In this document: positions 2,780-20,023 of the stretch, piece after piece
Layout: each line of letters starts with the position of its first letter
Position numbering within the stretch: position 1 is the stretch's first letter
DNA from: a virus
Length of the DNA: 23,126 nucleotides
Virus record (IMG/VR): IMGVR_UViG_3300010392_001041
Span: 1 to 23,126 of that record
Direction: 5' to 3' (one strand)
Position numbers and translations under genes: made by a program
Notes under the pieces: generated by a model
The model's database searches: none
What the model was told of the DNA's origin: nothing
Seen by the model: only the letters and a program-made list of their open reading frames with translations

Positions 2780-3340
2780 TCAATTTAGGCCGGTGACTCC
2801 GTATTGATCTTTCCAGGCCTCCCAATCCGTACCATCCCAGGATCGAGGATCGCGCATAGAGTCGGAGAAAAGACCGGCCACGGTTATAGTTTTACGGTTG
2901 CTAAACCGTTTCCAGCTTACAGTAACTTTGATCCGTTTCGCTTTTCCTGGCGTATGCTCTGTGATCGTCCAGCGGACCGTATAGGGCCCATCTTGATAAG
3001 CATAATCGCCGTTTTCAACGTCGATCGGAAACTGATAGCGTACTTCTTCCATTAGATCGCGGGCCAGGTTAAGGGCCTGCGTTTGCATATTGCCGGTGGT
3101 ATTTAATTTGATCGTCATTAAGAGCGCCGAGGTCGCGGTTAAAAGCGTCATGCCCAGGATAACCATAGCGATCATAACCTCGATAATCGTAAAGCCGGCC
3201 TGGGCCCTATTGTCCGCGGCCACGGTTTTTAGCAATATGCGCTCATCTTCCTGCAGTTTGTCTTTAAGATCATCGACCATCTTATCATCGACGGCCTTTC
3301 TGTTTTTGCCGGTAATTAATTCAATTATAAAATTTCGCAC
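2780..3340 (-). CDS. Prepilin-type (type IV pilin/pseudopilin-like) protein
   Basis: The core is the class III signal GFTIIEVMIAMVILG, in which a prepilin peptidase would cut between Gly and Phe and methylate the new N-terminus; the conserved Glu at +5 is present. A hydrophobic helix of about 25 residues and a helix resembling PilV/GspI minor pilins follow, then a beta-rich C-terminal part. I chose the GTG at 3340-3338 because GGGGG lies four bases upstream and the previous gene ends eight bases before it; this gives 186 residues but an unusually long leader of about 48. An ATG at 3280-3278 would shorten the leader to about 29. Its location in a phage early operon is unusual. It may enter the host type IV pilus or type II secretion machinery. 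Confidence 0.8.
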   Translation of the reverse strand: MRNFIIELITGKNRKAVDDKMVDDLKDKLQEDERILLKTVAADNRAQAGFTIIEVMIAMVILGMTLLTATSALLMTIKLNTTGNMQTQALNLARDLMEEVRYQFPIDVENGDYAYQDGPYTVRWTITEHTPGKAKRIKVTVSWKRFSNRKTITVAGLFSDSMRDPRSWDGTDWEAWKDQYGVTGLN

Positions 3341-3348
3341 AATACCCC

Positions 3349-3723
3349 CTATGCGGCCTTTTCGAGATCCGGCCAAAATTCCAGCTGGACAACCTGGGCC
3401 ATGTTGATTTTAACTTTTGGTTTTGGGCGGGCCTTTAGTCGGTTGATCTTTTTTAGGGTGGTATTTGCCTGGGCCATAAAGCGCGGCAGGATCTCGGCCC
3501 TTATTTCGGCGTGTAGATCCCTGGCCCATTGGGGCGCCATAGAATTGTGCGGAGATCCGAAACTTAGAAAGCGGGCCTTAATGCCTCGGCGGGCGCACTC
3601 GATCGCGGCTAATTCTTCCCATTGATGATCGGCCGCGAAGTGGCAAGCGAGCTCGGCCTTTTCTTTCTGGCGCCGGTACCGCTCGCGTAATGTTGCTAAT
3701 TCTTTTTCAAGTTTGGTTTTCAT
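3349..3723 (-). CDS. Hypothetical protein with helical, basic composition
   Basis: A 124-residue protein. The N-terminal 35 residues are a charged helix with coiled-coil character (KLEKELATLRERYRRQKEK). The middle holds a His/Trp-containing segment and the C-terminus is basic (RLKARPKPKVK) before a hydrophobic LEFWPDL end. An AGAGGAT ribosome site precedes the ATG. It lies between a small zinc-ribbon gene and the prepilin-like gene with only a few bases between them. I do not recognise a family. Confidence 0.65.
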   Translation of the reverse strand: MKTKLEKELATLRERYRRQKEKAELACHFAADHQWEELAAIECARRGIKARFLSFGSPHNSMAPQWARDLHAEIRAEILPRFMAQANTTLKKINRLKARPKPKVKINMAQVVQLEFWPDLEKAA

Positions 3724-12974: not shown

Positions 12975-13358
12975 ATGGTGAAGCAAATTAGAAATGAAAT
13001 CTTTGATAGCCTGGCGCCCTTTATCGCACTTGCTATAGCACTTGCAATAGCCGGCTGCGCGGCGGGGCAATTCCAGGGCAACCCCATTCCGGATACCGCG
13101 ATCGGTAAATATGTCACGGCCCGCAAGTTTTACAACGACCAGCTGGAAAGCCTAACGGTGTACGGTGCATTATTGACGGCCGAGGAAAAGGCAGATCTTA
13201 AAAAAGATCTCGATCCGGTATTCGACGCGATCGAAACCACCCTCGATGGATGGAAGATAGCTCTAATGGATCCGGCCAAAGATCCGACGGCCTATAACGG
13301 CGCCTGGTTGAAATTGAGGCAGAAAATGGTGGTGACAATAGCCAAATACCTTGATTAA
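12975..13358 (+). CDS. Predicted lipoprotein of the lysis block
   Basis: A 127-residue protein with a signal peptide (PFIALAIALAIAGC) ending in a lipobox, IAGC, at residues about 25-28. The mature part is helical and acidic (LTAEEKADLKKDLDPVFDAI). Signal peptidase II would cut before the Cys and lipid-anchor it, in the inner or outer membrane. Directly after the holin, so an outer-membrane spanin-like role is possible, although spanin lipoproteins are usually shorter and Pro-rich. AAAGGAGG lies upstream. Confidence 0.6.
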   Translation: MVKQIRNEIFDSLAPFIALAIALAIAGCAAGQFQGNPIPDTAIGKYVTARKFYNDQLESLTVYGALLTAEEKADLKKDLDPVFDAIETTLDGWKIALMDPAKDPTAYNGAWLKLRQKMVVTIAKYLD

Positions 13359-13649: not shown

Positions 13650-14039
13650 ATGATATTGACCACTGATAAAATAGGCGCACTTATTCATGCGGCGATTAGA
13701 AGTTTTAACGAATTGGCCAATCCGGTTACACCTATCGAGGCTTTTGGGGATCTTTCCGACGGCGAAAAGGCCCTTTTTAATTCACAAATGGCCCAAATGG
13801 TTGAAAATATTAAGCTGGATCCCCATGAGTTACATGATAAATGGAAAGTAACCGCCCAGGAAATGATCGACGCCGGCACCATTTCGCAGGATTTAGTTGC
13901 CAATTTAGAAACTTATATGCTACCGTTTAGAGAATTGCCAGTATGGAAGAAAACCGAATACCGGTTACAACTCCAACTGGCCAGAACCCTATTGAGGCAT
14001 AATCGAAATGTCGAAAGGGCAGAAAAACGGCAACGGTAA
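13650..14039 (+). CDS. Hypothetical protein before the small terminase
   Basis: A 129-residue protein from ATG 13650 (AGAGGATGG upstream; the frame upstream of this contains the hairpin and is unlikely). Mostly helical and acidic, with ALIHAAIRSFNELANPVTP, SDGEKALFNSQMAQMVENI and a basic C-terminal helix. It overlaps the next gene by 32 bases. Not recognised; position suggests a link to lysis or packaging. Confidence 0.5.
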   Translation: MILTTDKIGALIHAAIRSFNELANPVTPIEAFGDLSDGEKALFNSQMAQMVENIKLDPHELHDKWKVTAQEMIDAGTISQDLVANLETYMLPFRELPVWKKTEYRLQLQLARTLLRHNRNVERAEKRQR

Positions 14040-14640
14040 TGGCAACGGTTATCCGGTCGAAGTGTGGCAAGAGATCAAACAGGAGTACATATTAGGCCAG
14101 CTATCTATCGCTGCAATATCGCGCACTTACGGACCCACCCGCCAGGCCATTATGAAGCAGGCCGACAAAAACGGATGGGCCAGGAACATGGCCGACGATG
14201 TACGCGCCTCGGTAAAAAAGAAAACGATCGAGGCCGAGTTACAGCAAGAGGTTACACCGGAGAACTACACAGAGGCGATTGATAAGTATGGCGAGCTCGG
14301 CGCAGGAGTGATCGGCGCTCACAAGGTTTTATTCCATAAAATTTTGCGGCGGTGTGATGTAACCCTGGACCGATTGATAAGAGGCGATATAATAATGGAC
14401 GAGCTCGCGGCCGGCAAGCGCATAAGAAAAAATTTAGTGGTGGCAGCCACCCTGGCCTTGAAAGATCAAAACACTACCTTGAAAACTGTATCCGAAGTGG
14501 TGGCCAAAATAGTACCCCTGCAGCGCCAGGCATTTAACATCGATGAGGATGGATCCGGCGCCGATAAGATAACTTACTACATTGTGGGCGACTTAGAGAA
14601 ACCGGCCGATGCGGGAATGTCCAGGCAAATAACCGCCTAA
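14008..14640 (+). CDS. Putative terminase small subunit
   Basis: A 210-residue protein: a Gly/Asn repeat near the start, then a helix-turn-helix at residues 18-58 (EVWQEIKQEYILGQLS, then SRTYGPTRQAIMKQA), then a long helical part with LIRGDIIMDELAAGKRIRK, which may be the oligomerisation domain. An HTH domain followed by helices directly upstream of TerL is the usual form of small terminases, which recognise the packaging site and form rings. The chimeric ORF lies between it and TerL. No sequence family is certain. Confidence 0.6.
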   Translation: MSKGQKNGNGNGNGYPVEVWQEIKQEYILGQLSIAAISRTYGPTRQAIMKQADKNGWARNMADDVRASVKKKTIEAELQQEVTPENYTEAIDKYGELGAGVIGAHKVLFHKILRRCDVTLDRLIRGDIIMDELAAGKRIRKNLVVAATLALKDQNTTLKTVSEVVAKIVPLQRQAFNIDEDGSGADKITYYIVGDLEKPADAGMSRQITA

Positions 14641-14683
14641 AATCAAGGTACTCTGACCCCTCGGTATGGTCCGATCGTTTAAT

Positions 14684-14710
14684 CTCGCGCAAATAGCGAG
14701 GCCGTTTTTT
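14684..14710 (+). terminator. Weak intrinsic terminator
   Basis: CTCGC (14684-14688) and GCGAG (14696-14700) with a seven-base loop, then GCCG and six T. Five pairs only, so it may be partial. It lies in the 105-base gap after the small terminase. Confidence 0.45.
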
Positions 14711-14745
14711 GCGTAATTTCACCCAAATAGCCCATTTTATGAAAA

Positions 14746-15108
14746 ATGCTTGAAAATCACTTGAAAATAAATAGGCGTAAGTTTTTGCAGCTGGCCACCC
14801 TGGGCACCCTGGGCCTGGCCCTGGGGATCGAGGCGGTACCAGCTGCAGCGCAAAAGGCGCCGGCAGCGGCCGGCATGAATCCAATTTTTACAGGCGCCCT
14901 GGGTAGGTATGAGGGCGTTTCCATTATTCATAGCCCTGGCGATTGGCTGGACGAGGCGGCCGAGATCGATAGAAAGTTTTTCGAGGGCGATCAATGGAGC
15001 AAAGCGCAGCGCGAACTATTAACCCGCGGATCCACGGCGATCAAGGTCAATCGCACTAAAGCACGATGGATCCCATTTAACAAAATGAACCACCCAGGAG
15101 GGTGGTAG
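14746..15108 (+). CDS. Chimeric ORF: Tat-like signal, capsid-like and portal-like fragments
   Basis: A 120-codon frame. Residues 8-36 look like a twin-arginine signal: INRRKFLQL, a Leu/Gly-rich hydrophobic stretch, then a PAAA cut site. Residues 44-62 (MNPIFTGALGRYEGVSIIH) resemble an internal segment of N4-gp56-type major capsid proteins. Residues 77-103 (KFFEGDQW, then ELLTRGSTA) align with residues 86-113 of this phage's own portal (KFYDGDQW, then ELKDRGQKA). No Shine-Dalgarno site precedes ATG 14746. Its TAG stop is in the same frame as TerL, 33 bases before the TerL start. It may be debris of recombination, or a real fusion protein. Confidence 0.45.
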   Translation: MLENHLKINRRKFLQLATLGTLGLALGIEAVPAAAQKAPAAAGMNPIFTGALGRYEGVSIIHSPGDWLDEAAEIDRKFFEGDQWSKAQRELLTRGSTAIKVNRTKARWIPFNKMNHPGGW

Positions 15109-15141
15109 CAAAAGGAGAGGAAAGCCGATGCGGAGATTGAA

Positions 15142-16626
15142 TTGTCAAACGCAATACCACAACCGGTTGCCGGTGAGGAAAGCGTTACCTATGACGCGAT
15201 ACCAACACTAAGGCAATTCCACAAGTCCGGTGCAGCAATCCGCGGCGTAGTCGGTCCGGTCGGATCCGGAAAGACAACCGGCGCCACCTGGGAAGTGTGC
15301 CACCTTATACCCTGGCATCTTTTCAATAAATTCAATATCAAAGAGTGCAAATTTGTTGTTGTCCGCAATACCTATGCCGAGCTCCGAGATACCACGCAAG
15401 CGACGATTTTCGAGTGGTTTCCTTTCGGCACCTTTCTAAAGCAGGAACAGAAGTACACCATTAAGCATCCCGACGGCCCTACCGTAACCCTTTTATTTAG
15501 ATCATGCGATCGAGAGGCGGACGTAAAGAAGTTTAAGAGCCTGGAAATAACAGGCTATTGGATCGATGAGTCTATCGAAGTGGCCGACGCTATCAAGAGG
15601 ATGCTTAAAAACAGGATCGGCCGATTTCCTAAGATGAAAAAGGCCCTGCAGTGGTATAAGGAAAGATACGGCGAGATCCCGCCCGAATGGATCATCGATG
15701 GTGAGGAAACATTCCCCCTACCTCGATTCGGTATAGAAACGACGAACCCGCCCGATATTGAAATGCCCACCTATCATCAATTTGCCTGGCAGAACGATGT
15801 ACCAGGGCCCATAGCGGAAATTGAACCACTGGCCAACCATGAGGGATTTTGGCAGCCACCCAGGGAAAACGAGAAGTATCTCCGCCCAGGTTATTACAAC
15901 GATTTGATTCTGGATTATAAGGACACACCGGATTGGATCGAGATGTACGTCGATGGAAAGCCTGGCGTCCTGGTCAAGGGCAAGCTGGTTTATTATAATT
16001 TCCGGCGCGATATGCACCAGGCCAGCGCCCCTTTGATATGGTCCGGACCTGGCACCCTGTATCGAGGATGGGATAATTCGGGGAATGTACCAGCTGCGCT
16101 TGTAGTGCAAAACCCCTCGCCTATGCGGTTTCATGTGATGCGCGAGTTTTGTCACGATAAGATGGGGATCATTGATTTTACTAAGTGGGTGAAAGAAAAA
16201 TGCAACGTCGAGTTTCCTAATGCCGAGTGGGTAGATTATGGGGATCCGGCCGGCGCAGCCAAGTTTAGTAAGAAAGAGGGCGGATTTACCAGCAACGCCA
16301 TTTTAATGGCCGGCGAGGGCGTGACCGTCGAGAGCTCGGAGCAAAACTTTACGGCCAGAACGCAGGCCGTCGATGGGATCCTGGCGCGTATCGATGGATG
16401 CTTGATCGATCCCAGGTGTATCAGGCTATTAAATGGATTCTTAGGCGGATACCATTACAAAGAGATAATGAACACCGGCGAGTATTTTGACGATCCGGAA
16501 AAGAACCGGTTTAGCCATATCCATGATGCCTTTCAATATGTCATGGTCCGCCTGGTGGGCAACAAAACCAAGAAACGCGGCGCCGAGAAGTGGAAACGTC
16601 GACGCCGAACCGCTATGAGCGTATAG
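15142..16626 (+). CDS. Terminase large subunit (TerL), ATPase and nuclease
   Basis: A 494-residue packaging motor. The ATPase domain has a Walker A GPVGSGKT at 38-45 and a Walker B ending in WIDE (Asp142, Glu143). The RNase H-like nuclease domain has acidic residues at GWDNSG (Asp311), DYGDPAG (Asp365/Asp368) and SHIHDAFQY (Asp462). It cuts concatemeric DNA and drives it into the prohead. The start is a TTG; GGAG six bases upstream supports it, and no in-frame ATG exists nearby. Both active sites are intact and the length is normal for the family. Confidence 0.93.
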   Translation: MSNAIPQPVAGEESVTYDAIPTLRQFHKSGAAIRGVVGPVGSGKTTGATWEVCHLIPWHLFNKFNIKECKFVVVRNTYAELRDTTQATIFEWFPFGTFLKQEQKYTIKHPDGPTVTLLFRSCDREADVKKFKSLEITGYWIDESIEVADAIKRMLKNRIGRFPKMKKALQWYKERYGEIPPEWIIDGEETFPLPRFGIETTNPPDIEMPTYHQFAWQNDVPGPIAEIEPLANHEGFWQPPRENEKYLRPGYYNDLILDYKDTPDWIEMYVDGKPGVLVKGKLVYYNFRRDMHQASAPLIWSGPGTLYRGWDNSGNVPAALVVQNPSPMRFHVMREFCHDKMGIIDFTKWVKEKCNVEFPNAEWVDYGDPAGAAKFSKKEGGFTSNAILMAGEGVTVESSEQNFTARTQAVDGILARIDGCLIDPRCIRLLNGFLGGYHYKEIMNTGEYFDDPEKNRFSHIHDAFQYVMVRLVGNKTKKRGAEKWKRRRRTAMSV

Positions 16627-16637
16627 GAGGATACCTT

Positions 16638-17330
16638 ATGCACAGGCTAAAAACGATTTTCGTAATTTTCTTAATCGTCATGCTGGCAGGATTCGCCCAG
16701 GCCGGCGAGAAACAATTAACTTTTGAATGGCAGCAAGAGGCCGATGATCTTCCGGACCTGGCCAAGTGGGAATTATTTATGTCACTGGATCCCGATATAC
16801 CTTTTGACCAGTGGGCCCTGCAGGGCGATATTGTTTACGATGGTAATCCGGCCAGCTGGTACGATGCCACCTTTACAATCACAGTGCCCGACGGCCAGGA
16901 AACGCCGACCTATTTCAAAATGACGGCGATCGACCATGCCGGCAACGATAGCGATCCATCCGACTTGCAAGAGGGCGCCCCTACCGTTATTGATTTCAAG
17001 CCACCGGCCGCGGTGGCGGACCTGGCCGGCGTATATGCCAACCAGGCTAAAACGGTAACTCTAACCTGGTCAACAGATCCGGCCGATACCGATATAGCCA
17101 AACAGGAAGTATTTAAGGCCTCGGCAGCCGGCGGGCCTTATGCCTCGATCGGTACCGGATCCAGCCCATTTGTGTACCAGCTGGCGCCGTCGGATTCTGG
17201 CAAGTGGATTTATTTTGTGGTGGTCCTAACCGATAACGACGGCAATTTTTCAGCCAACAGCAACGAGGCCGCGGTTAAGTTGTCGATGGGTGTACCGTTT
17301 GGATTGCGCGTGACCGTCCAGGCCCAATAA
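16638..17330 (+). CDS. Secreted protein with fibronectin type III domain
   Basis: A 230-residue protein from ATG 16638, eight bases... after AGGAGG. It begins with a Sec signal peptide (MHRLKT, a hydrophobic core, cut after AQA at residue 22). Residues about 115-215 read as an FnIII domain: PPAAVADLAGV, VTLTWSTDPADTDIAKQEVF, then WIYFVVVLTDNDGNFSANS. Residues 25-110 look like a second, more diverged one. FnIII domains in phages usually sit in tail or capsid proteins without signal peptides; export of one from between TerL and portal is unusual. It may bind glycans or the host surface after export. The signal peptide is strong by eye. Confidence 0.7.
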   Translation: MHRLKTIFVIFLIVMLAGFAQAGEKQLTFEWQQEADDLPDLAKWELFMSLDPDIPFDQWALQGDIVYDGNPASWYDATFTITVPDGQETPTYFKMTAIDHAGNDSDPSDLQEGAPTVIDFKPPAAVADLAGVYANQAKTVTLTWSTDPADTDIAKQEVFKASAAGGPYASIGTGSSPFVYQLAPSDSGKWIYFVVVLTDNDGNFSANSNEAAVKLSMGVPFGLRVTVQAQ

Positions 17331-17748: not shown

Positions 17749-20023
17749 GCCGGACCGATTTAACGATCCGGATTATGGTTACAACCAGGGCCTATCCCAA
17801 GAGGAAGAATTAGCAATAGCCGGTTTTACAGACGCCGAAACCCGCGACACTGAAAAGCATCCCTATGATTATGATCCTAAAGTGCTCACCAGGTACCGCC
17901 GGCTAAATGGATGGTACAAACGAGAGCGCCAGCTGCAGGGCGATTTTCGTATCGAGCAAATGAAAGATCATAAGTTTTATGACGGCGATCAATGGGAGGA
18001 AGATGATAAAACCGAGCTCAAAGATCGCGGGCAAAAGGCCACGGTTTTTAATCAGATCAAGCCCACTTGTGATTGGGTGATCGGTACCGAGAAAAGAACG
18101 CGGATCGATTATCTGGTATTACCCAGGGGCAAAGAGGACCGGCCCCTGGCCGAAACGAAAACCAAGATCCTTAAATATGTATCCGATATTAATAAAGAAC
18201 AATTCCACCGGTCCAGGGCCTTTGAGGATTCGGTTAAATCTGGCCTCGGATGGTTAGAGGCCGGCGTTAAATCTGATATAGACGATGATCCGGTATTCGT
18301 AAGGTGGGAAGATTGGCGCAATATTTGGTGGGATACCCTGCACGTTGAGCCCGATTATACCGACGGCCGCTATTTATTCAGATCCAAATGGGTGGATTTC
18401 GATGTAGCGGCCTCGATGTTTCCGGACCGCCTGGGCATTGTCCGCCTGGCAGTGCAAAAGGATGATCTGTATTGGCAGGAAGAAGATCAACAGATCGATG
18501 TTGATCCGGTCGAGGGCGAGGCAGGATTCGCGCTGGAATTGTCCGGAGATACCGGCGTAACCACCTGGGCCCGCAACCGCGTCCGCCTAATTGAAGCCTG
18601 GTATAAAGAGCCGATGCGCGGCAAGATAATGAAAGGCAAGGATATTGGCACCCTAAACGGCGTCATGTACGACGAGCAAAGCGAGAACCACCAGGCGTTA
18701 GTGCAAGAGGGCCTGGCCAGTACGGTGGATGCAATCCGGATGGGCGTTAGGATAATGATCTTCTGCAGCAGGGGCATCTTGCACGACGGCCCGACGCCTT
18801 ATAATCACAACCGTTTTCCTTTCGTGCCCATTTGGGCAAACCGCAAAAAGGTTGACAATTCACCTTATGGAATGATCCGGCAGCTGCGCGATCCCCAGGA
18901 AGATCTAAACAAGCGCCGATCGAAAGCCCTGCATATTCTCAATACTCGCCAGGTTGTAGCCGATGAAAACGCCACCGATGATTGGGATGATATTAAGCAG
19001 GAAGTGGACCGACCCGACGGCCTCATCCGAGTTAAGCAAGGCACCCGATTTGATTTCCAGACCGATACGCAGCTGGCCGGCGAACATATTATGCTGATGA
19101 ACCAGGACGCCGAGTATATCGAGCGGACCGGCGGCGTTAATGATGAAATGATGGGCAGGCAAACAAACGCGGTTAGCGGCAAGGCGATAACGGCCCGCCA
19201 GGAGCTCGGTACCACCTTAACCATGACCATGTTTGACAATCTCCGCCTGGCCTTTCAGCTGATAGGCGAGCTAAAACTTTCCCTGGTCGAACAATTTTAC
19301 ACCGAAGAAAAAACAATCCGGATCCAGGGGGCCCCGAATGAGTGGGATTTTGTCGATCTCAATTACCAGGATCCGGAAACCGGCGAAATGACAAACGATA
19401 TAACGGCCAGCCAGGCCGATTTTGTTATCGATAGCCAGAACTTTACGGCCTCGATGCGCCAGGCAGCCTTTGAGCAATTAACCTCGATGCTCGAAAAATT
19501 ACCGCCCGAATTAGCTATGGCCATGCTCGATATTATTGTCGATATGTCCGATGTACCGCTAAAGGAAACTTTAGTGCAGCGGATCCGCGATATAACAGGG
19601 CAAAAGGATCCGAGCAAGGATCCCCAGGATCCGGAGGAAGTGGCCAAAGAGCAGGCCAAAGCAGAGGCCGAGGCCAAACAAAAGGAATTGTTAGAGGCCA
19701 TTCAGATGTTAGAGATTCGATTTAAGGAGGCCCAGGCCGAGAAATTGGAAACCGACGCGGCGGCCACTTCATTAAAGATGGAAGTCGAGGCCGATAAGGT
19801 GGGATCCGAGGTTGAAAAGATCGAGGCGGAAACAATGTCGATCGAGAGCTCGGTAGAACTGGCCGACGAGGAATTAGATTTTAAAAAGACCGACGCGGCA
19901 GCCGGCCGGCAGATCGATAGGGCCAAAGTCTTAGCGGATATTGAGGCCTCTAAACGCTCGGAAATGACAGCACAACGACCGGCACCAAAGCAACCAGCTA
20001 AAAAACCAGCCAAGAAAGGATAG
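17717..20023 (+). CDS. Portal protein, P22-like
   Basis: A 768-residue protein, close in length to the P22 portal (725). Near the N-terminus it has LTRYRRLNGWYKRERQLQ, then KFYDGDQW (86-93) and FNQIKPTCDWVIGTEKRTR, the usual opening of this family. The middle contains HNRFPFVPIWANRK and GMIRQLRDPQEDLNKRRSKA, and AVSGKAITARQELGTT, conserved portal patterns. Residues about 600-745 are a long Ala/Glu/Lys helix resembling the P22 barrel, ending in a basic KKPAKKG. Twelve copies would form the DNA gate at one capsid vertex and dock TerL. GCGAGGA precedes the ATG. Confidence 0.88.
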   Translation: MPDISNTPAVEPDRFNDPDYGYNQGLSQEEELAIAGFTDAETRDTEKHPYDYDPKVLTRYRRLNGWYKRERQLQGDFRIEQMKDHKFYDGDQWEEDDKTELKDRGQKATVFNQIKPTCDWVIGTEKRTRIDYLVLPRGKEDRPLAETKTKILKYVSDINKEQFHRSRAFEDSVKSGLGWLEAGVKSDIDDDPVFVRWEDWRNIWWDTLHVEPDYTDGRYLFRSKWVDFDVAASMFPDRLGIVRLAVQKDDLYWQEEDQQIDVDPVEGEAGFALELSGDTGVTTWARNRVRLIEAWYKEPMRGKIMKGKDIGTLNGVMYDEQSENHQALVQEGLASTVDAIRMGVRIMIFCSRGILHDGPTPYNHNRFPFVPIWANRKKVDNSPYGMIRQLRDPQEDLNKRRSKALHILNTRQVVADENATDDWDDIKQEVDRPDGLIRVKQGTRFDFQTDTQLAGEHIMLMNQDAEYIERTGGVNDEMMGRQTNAVSGKAITARQELGTTLTMTMFDNLRLAFQLIGELKLSLVEQFYTEEKTIRIQGAPNEWDFVDLNYQDPETGEMTNDITASQADFVIDSQNFTASMRQAAFEQLTSMLEKLPPELAMAMLDIIVDMSDVPLKETLVQRIRDITGQKDPSKDPQDPEEVAKEQAKAEAEAKQKELLEAIQMLEIRFKEAQAEKLETDAAATSLKMEVEADKVGSEVEKIEAETMSIESSVELADEELDFKKTDAAAGRQIDRAKVLADIEASKRSEMTAQRPAPKQPAKKPAKKG

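Follow-up and report, generated by a model that had tools for sequence, protein, structure and literature searches.

The DNA analysed here, a viral stretch of 23,126 nucleotides (the window), contains between the two terminase genes an open reading frame (ORF) that is best explained as a genuine, clade-specific accessory gene. This ORF joins a twin-arginine (Tat) signal, a motif of N4-gp56 capsid proteins, a cassette that is swapped between lineages and a conserved tail, and it is maintained at one position under purifying selection. Our preferred reading, to which we give a probability of about 40%, is that the product is an exported, clade-restricted accessory protein with a swappable specificity segment and most likely interferes with related superinfecting phages. 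The features of the region are as follows.

14008–14640, + strand: terminase small subunit (TerS), upstream neighbour (phrog_1206, E 4.1e-23)
14683–14701, + strand: weak terminator-like hairpin ahead of the ORF (number of such sites not above chance)
14746–15108, + strand: the ORF, 120 aa, stop included; member of a conserved family (same place in relatives, purifying selection)
14746–14850, + strand: Tat signal peptide, residues 1–35, with NRRKFL, a hydrophobic stretch and an AAA cleavage-like site (putative cleavage point; TIGR01409)
14878–14931, + strand: N4-gp56 capsid-like motif, residues 45–62, NPIFTGALGRYEGVSIIH (PF13252, hhalign, match to the phage's own MCP)
14941–15063, + strand: exchangeable cassette, residues 66–106, like a portal N-terminus (profile matches, DNA swap boundaries)
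15067–15084, + strand: conserved tail motif WIPFNK, residues 108–113 (family alignments)
15142–16626, + strand: terminase large subunit (TerL), TTG start, downstream neighbour (phrog_2, E 4.2e-21)
17939–18061, + strand: portion of the portal gene of this phage, residues 75–115, which the cassette resembles (E 5.1e-6)

A conserved frame between the terminase genes

The original prediction described a 120-aa ORF at 14746–15108, composed of a Tat signal, a capsid-like and a portal-like part and lacking a Shine-Dalgarno sequence. The ORF is present as described, its three-part make-up was confirmed, and the absence of a Shine-Dalgarno sequence holds in the window. Searching IMG/VR with the ORF gave relatives over residues 1–114 at 49% identity, and a search with TerL gave ten related contigs, all of which carry the ORF upstream of TerL, although in one (L010) the contig end leaves only its last 41 codons; wherever a contig carries both terminase genes, the ORF lies between TerS and TerL. 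A TerL profile scan returned the same ten contigs, and in a wider virus search the DNA pattern RRxF, 31 residues, NPxF returned only the same nine complete contigs; since the 31-residue interval of this pattern was fixed, the spacing from the twin arginine to the capsid motif is constant. Another wider pattern search gave at least 500 candidate stretches, so some carriers may have been missed. After identical ORFs were collapsed, seven lineages remained, six of them complete: the window (with L006), L007, L009 (identical to L008), L004 (identical to L011), L012 (identical to L013) and L014. All 120 residues thus belong to one conserved family, a result that had been set in advance against a chimeric origin, yet the family is itself chimeric.

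Outside these contigs the ORF was not found. A tblastn search of 50,697 records of named phages gave only nine weak matches with E of about 9, none of these phages carrying the ORF; scanning of the corresponding regions of DC1 and Itty13 revealed no Tat-like ORF, and in eight further named phages the place was inspected via annotation tables alone. In bacterial genomes all eight matches were ordinary MCP genes and not the Tat ORF.

Whole-length dN/dS of the ORF, calculated by the Nei-Gojobori method, was 0.18–0.60 for 12 of 15 pairs, the other three showing saturation of dS; for the mature part of the window compared with that of L004 it was 0.15. Because these values are above the 0.06–0.13 of TerL, the ORF evolves faster, yet under constraint. 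The excess of synonymous changes was significant in five of the seven comparisons tested (p 5.6e-5 for the mature part of the window against L004), the remaining two being the signal-peptide part of the same pair (p 0.23) and L012 against L009 (p 0.08). The ORF hence shows both marks by which a functional coding gene was recognised, purifying selection and conserved position. A second assembly differed from the window by three mismatches in 17,985 bases, with none within 14740–15140. The original prediction had also considered recombination debris kept open by chance, as three unlike parts within one short frame without a Shine-Dalgarno sequence might suggest, but debris and misassembly are both rejected as extremely improbable because the place and the open frame are kept in ten of ten contigs, selection is purifying and the second assembly agrees.

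Other claims about the surroundings of the ORF held in part. The terminator said to precede it corresponds to the hairpin at 14683–14701, but with six such sites against 3.1 ± 2.0 expected these are barely above chance. The stop codon of the ORF lies in the TerL frame in the window, as claimed, but this frame is shared in only three of the six variants and the sharing is therefore coincidental; a conserved read-through from the ORF into TerL was rejected on the same count. At 15110–15142, and at the same place in L004, L007, L009, L012 and L014, a strong Shine-Dalgarno-like sequence, AAGGAGAGG or, in L014, AAGGGAGAGG, stands upstream of a conserved ATG (at 15128 in the window). In each of these six loci a short frame begins at this ATG and runs across the TTG start of TerL in a different reading frame. 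This short frame is possibly a leader peptide or a device for translational coupling.

Tat signal and capsid-like motif

The claimed twin-arginine signal was borne out by TIGR01409, which scored the window ORF at 20.0 bits, above the curated cut-off of 16.7, and thus places it among predicted Tat substrates; the model matched all six complete variants at E ≤ 1, the cut-off being compared for the window only. Like Tat-exported proteins, the family has a twin arginine and a hydrophobic stretch in six of six variants and two adjacent alanines close to where cleavage is expected, and the ORF product is predicted from its sequence to fold in the cytoplasm before export by the host Tat system. Unlike such proteins, it is encoded by a phage gene, and its mature part resembles no known Tat substrate in Pfam, NCBIfam or PHROGs.

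Elsewhere in the window, at 2780–3376 on the − strand, lies a gene whose product is prepilin-like and has a methylation motif at its N-terminus (PF07963, E 4.5e-8); above-cut-off matches also occur in two long relatives (L046, L047, L048; two of six records), and a 249-aa ORF of L047 is clearly similar to the protein of the window. A lipoprotein-like ORF (12975–13358, + strand) follows the probable holin gene and has NPIPDTAIGKY...ARKFYNDQ just behind its lipobox; it is faintly like the Tat ORF, with E 0.3 for the L012 variant among 1750 frames. A second signal-peptide-like start belongs to an Ig-like ORF (16638–17330, + strand; PF17936, E 7.9e-4, below the cut-off), which lies directly 3′ of TerL and is conserved in L004 and L007.

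In a Pfam search of the ORF with 24,736 models, the best two were P22_portal and Phage_capsid_3. The second matched residues 34–64 of the window ORF with E 0.012, in agreement with the N4-gp56-like segment that had been claimed, and the same region of the profile was matched by all six variants (E 0.0013–0.1), each of which has the motif NP[IL]FTGA[IL]G. When the mature parts were compared by hhalign with a set of twelve MCPs, the probability was 86.5, with E 4.6e-6 over 22 columns; the set included L019, which was itself found through the motif. When whole records were scanned in six frames with the family profile, the phage's own MCP was the only non-family match at E ≤ 1 in four of six records (E 8.6e-7 to 6.8e-4); the two records without this match, of 15.4 and 9.3 kb, are too short to reach the motif, one ending just past the portal gene and the other apparently within the MCP gene. 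For a first local MCP model, nine of the twelve MCPs had been fetched for carrying the motif, and hence no weight is given to its motif scores. When the model was rebuilt from ten named phages that had been selected on whole-MCP similarity, the motif was less well supported, its score being reached by 0 to 21 of 3000 shuffles across the variants (21 for the window, 18 for L009).

The ORF therefore has the motif NPIFTGALGxYxGV in common with the N4-gp56 or Phage_capsid_3 MCPs (PF13252; phrog_334), and the L012 variant additionally has a segment around KPVKIDGxDYYV. Unlike an MCP, however, the ORF has a Tat signal and is not a capsid; in the window it covers about 30 of 376 profile positions, and the variants score 12.0–18.2 bits over 25–52 positions, below the full-length cut-off of 23 bits.

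The portal-like cassette and its exchange

The segment claimed to be portal-like was matched by P22_portal at residues 66–106 with E 0.003, and the only other six-frame match of the ORF within the window was the portal gene (17942–18064, E 3.3e-4). The likeness to portal residues 86–113 that had been pointed out is the core of a longer match to residues 75–115. At the DNA level, 21 of 27 bases are identical over the KFFEGDQW core and only 28 of 66 over the longer stretch that includes it; the cassette is therefore no recent portal copy, and the idea that it arose by a recent duplication of the own portal gene was rejected.

This portal-like cassette is present in the window and L004, where its scores against the own portal (68 and 56, respectively) were reached by none of 300 shuffles. 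Against portals of named phages the scores were at most 46 for nine of ten and 59–62 for Rhizobium phage RHph_Y1_10. A profile of the two cassettes matched the portal in eight of eight records (E 1.9e-6 to 6.2e-5), these records being related and not independent, and it gave a single match among 177,635 PDB sequences, a portal, with E 0.0089. Moreover, profile–profile comparison of the cassette with thirteen portal N-termini gave a probability of 55 and E 1.2e-4. The matched segments are short, 22 columns for capsid and 40 for portal, and lie below the Pfam curated cut-offs; for PF16510 (cut-off 26.1 bits), two of six variants scored 16.6 and 15.7 bits over about 35–41 positions. Thus the cassettes of the window and L004 are like P22-like portals (PF16510) in aligning with residues 75–115 of the window's portal, but they differ in covering about 41 of 594 profile positions, without the portal core, and the likeness is missing from four of the six variants.

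The L012 cassette resembles another capsid segment, with 17.5 bits in the first local model and a score against the rebuilt MCP model that 0 of 3000 cassette shuffles reached; the tail of L010 agrees with this capsid likeness (0 to 3 of 3000 shuffles). Because the segment precedes the motif in real capsids, the two capsid segments of L012 stand in permuted, reversed order, which again is unlike an N4-gp56 MCP. Neither model, portal or capsid, recognises the cassettes of L007, L009 and L014, and this limits how far all cassettes can be taken as virion fragments. A weak MCP match of the window cassette elsewhere (columns 67–97), reached by 8 to 10 of 3000 shuffles, was taken as noise.

Exchange of the cassette is seen in DNA. 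By TerL, no two variants are closer than the window and L007 (96% identity); the DNA identity of this pair is 0.91 at 14896–14951, 0.39 and 0.48 at 14952–15060, and 0.85 from 15061, and for L007 and L009 the values over the same stretch are 0.98, 0.84, 0.95 and 0.75. The boundaries of this exchange nearly coincide with the ends of the portal-like match (14941–15063), so that two separate lines define the same module. This supports the earlier reading of a real domain shuffle, in which the portal-like segment is a DNA cassette swapped between close relatives. Near the ORF there is a second recombination patch, in the C-terminal third of TerS (14368–14487), where the window pairs with L007, and L009 with L004, as two DNA types, identity being 0.73–0.87 within and 0.38–0.62 between them.

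Since the matches are short and sub-threshold in Pfam, and some variants are without portal or second capsid likeness, the product might instead be an ordinary small Tat-exported orphan (for example, for lysis or envelope modification) whose capsid and portal likeness arose by chance or convergence. We consider this unlikely, because six-frame scans of whole records give MCP and portal as the only non-family matches, none of 300 shuffles scores as high against own-clade portals as the portal stretch does, and the DNA swap, an independent observation, has the same limits.

Possible functions of the product

AlphaFold models of ORF variants were poor (mean pLDDT 53.1 and 46.1); with these models Foldseek found nothing at E ≤ 0.001, and comparison of the L012 variant with solved structures gave only unrelated weak or repeat-driven matches. 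None of the six variants matched a PADLOC defence model at E ≤ 1. Tyrosine integrases were not found in six records, nor serine recombinases in the two long ones, and lysogenic expression is therefore unsupported. In the literature, with subscription journals mostly outside the texts covered, no precedent was found under phage Tat proteins, capsid or portal decoys, exported exclusion proteins or chimeric phage genes, and a search for N4-gp56 with Tat signals, of the same coverage, found nothing similar.

In our preferred reading, virion-gene fragments would most likely have been joined to a signal peptide to give the ORF, and homologous recombination in its flanks would produce the cassette swaps. 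The product would be exported through the host Tat system to the cell envelope, where its constant part may serve as a scaffold and its swappable segment may set specificity against a varying partner, the most likely outcome being interference with related superinfecting phages. Like SieA, Imm and Cor, which are superinfection-exclusion proteins of phages according to PMC11436027, it would be an accessory protein at the envelope, as predicted; unlike them, it has no sequence relation to such proteins in Pfam or PHROGs. We infer a role in superinfection interference from sequence, with the anatomy of the ORF as the sole guide to function, and this counts against the reading, as does the place of the gene among late head genes, which is unusual for exclusion genes, and the failure to find a defence-model match, a tyrosine integrase or a serine recombinase. 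A possible but doubtful reading is that the Tat-exported protein, stitched from the phage's own capsid and portal fragments with a cassette swapped for specificity, acts as an extracytoplasmic mimic against competing phages or as a Tat hitchhiker that pulls capsid- or portal-binding host sensors out of the cell.

The ORF lies within the packaging and head gene block, and the two proteins of which it carries pieces are precisely those in contact at the portal vertex. This would suit a factor in head assembly or portal incorporation; its hydrophobic N-terminus would keep it at the inner membrane, and its capsid-like and portal-like pieces would bind or compete at the portal–capsid contact during procapsid initiation. 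Such a role is unlikely, since the canonical twin-arginine signal in six of six members argues for export, and both the cassette exchange and the fast change (dN/dS 0.15–0.6 versus 0.06–0.13 for TerL) are unlike a factor with fixed partners. Quite improbable, finally, is a decoy role: the folded product would bind capsid- or portal-recognising immune sensors of the host while in the cytoplasm, and it might take them out via Tat. Portal sensing by host defences is real, as PMC12847820 reports activation of SpbK by the portal YonE and sensing of portals by some Avs systems, and the cassette is most like the portal of its own clade, together with that of RHph_Y1_10. However, according to PMC12847820 SpbK binds the clip domain of the portal and not its N-terminus, the part that the cassette is like, and export would take the decoy away from the site of the sensors unless the complex hitchhikes.

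With an exported protein that interferes with related phages as the preferred reading, the phage's own structural genes have supplied the pieces for a new protein that is predicted to be exported, and one of these pieces is exchanged between lineages inside a gene of 120 codons. If the pieces act as mimics, recognition of virion proteins would be linked to the cell envelope, and the family would offer a testable case of exclusion or counter-defence factors evolving from the phage's own parts.
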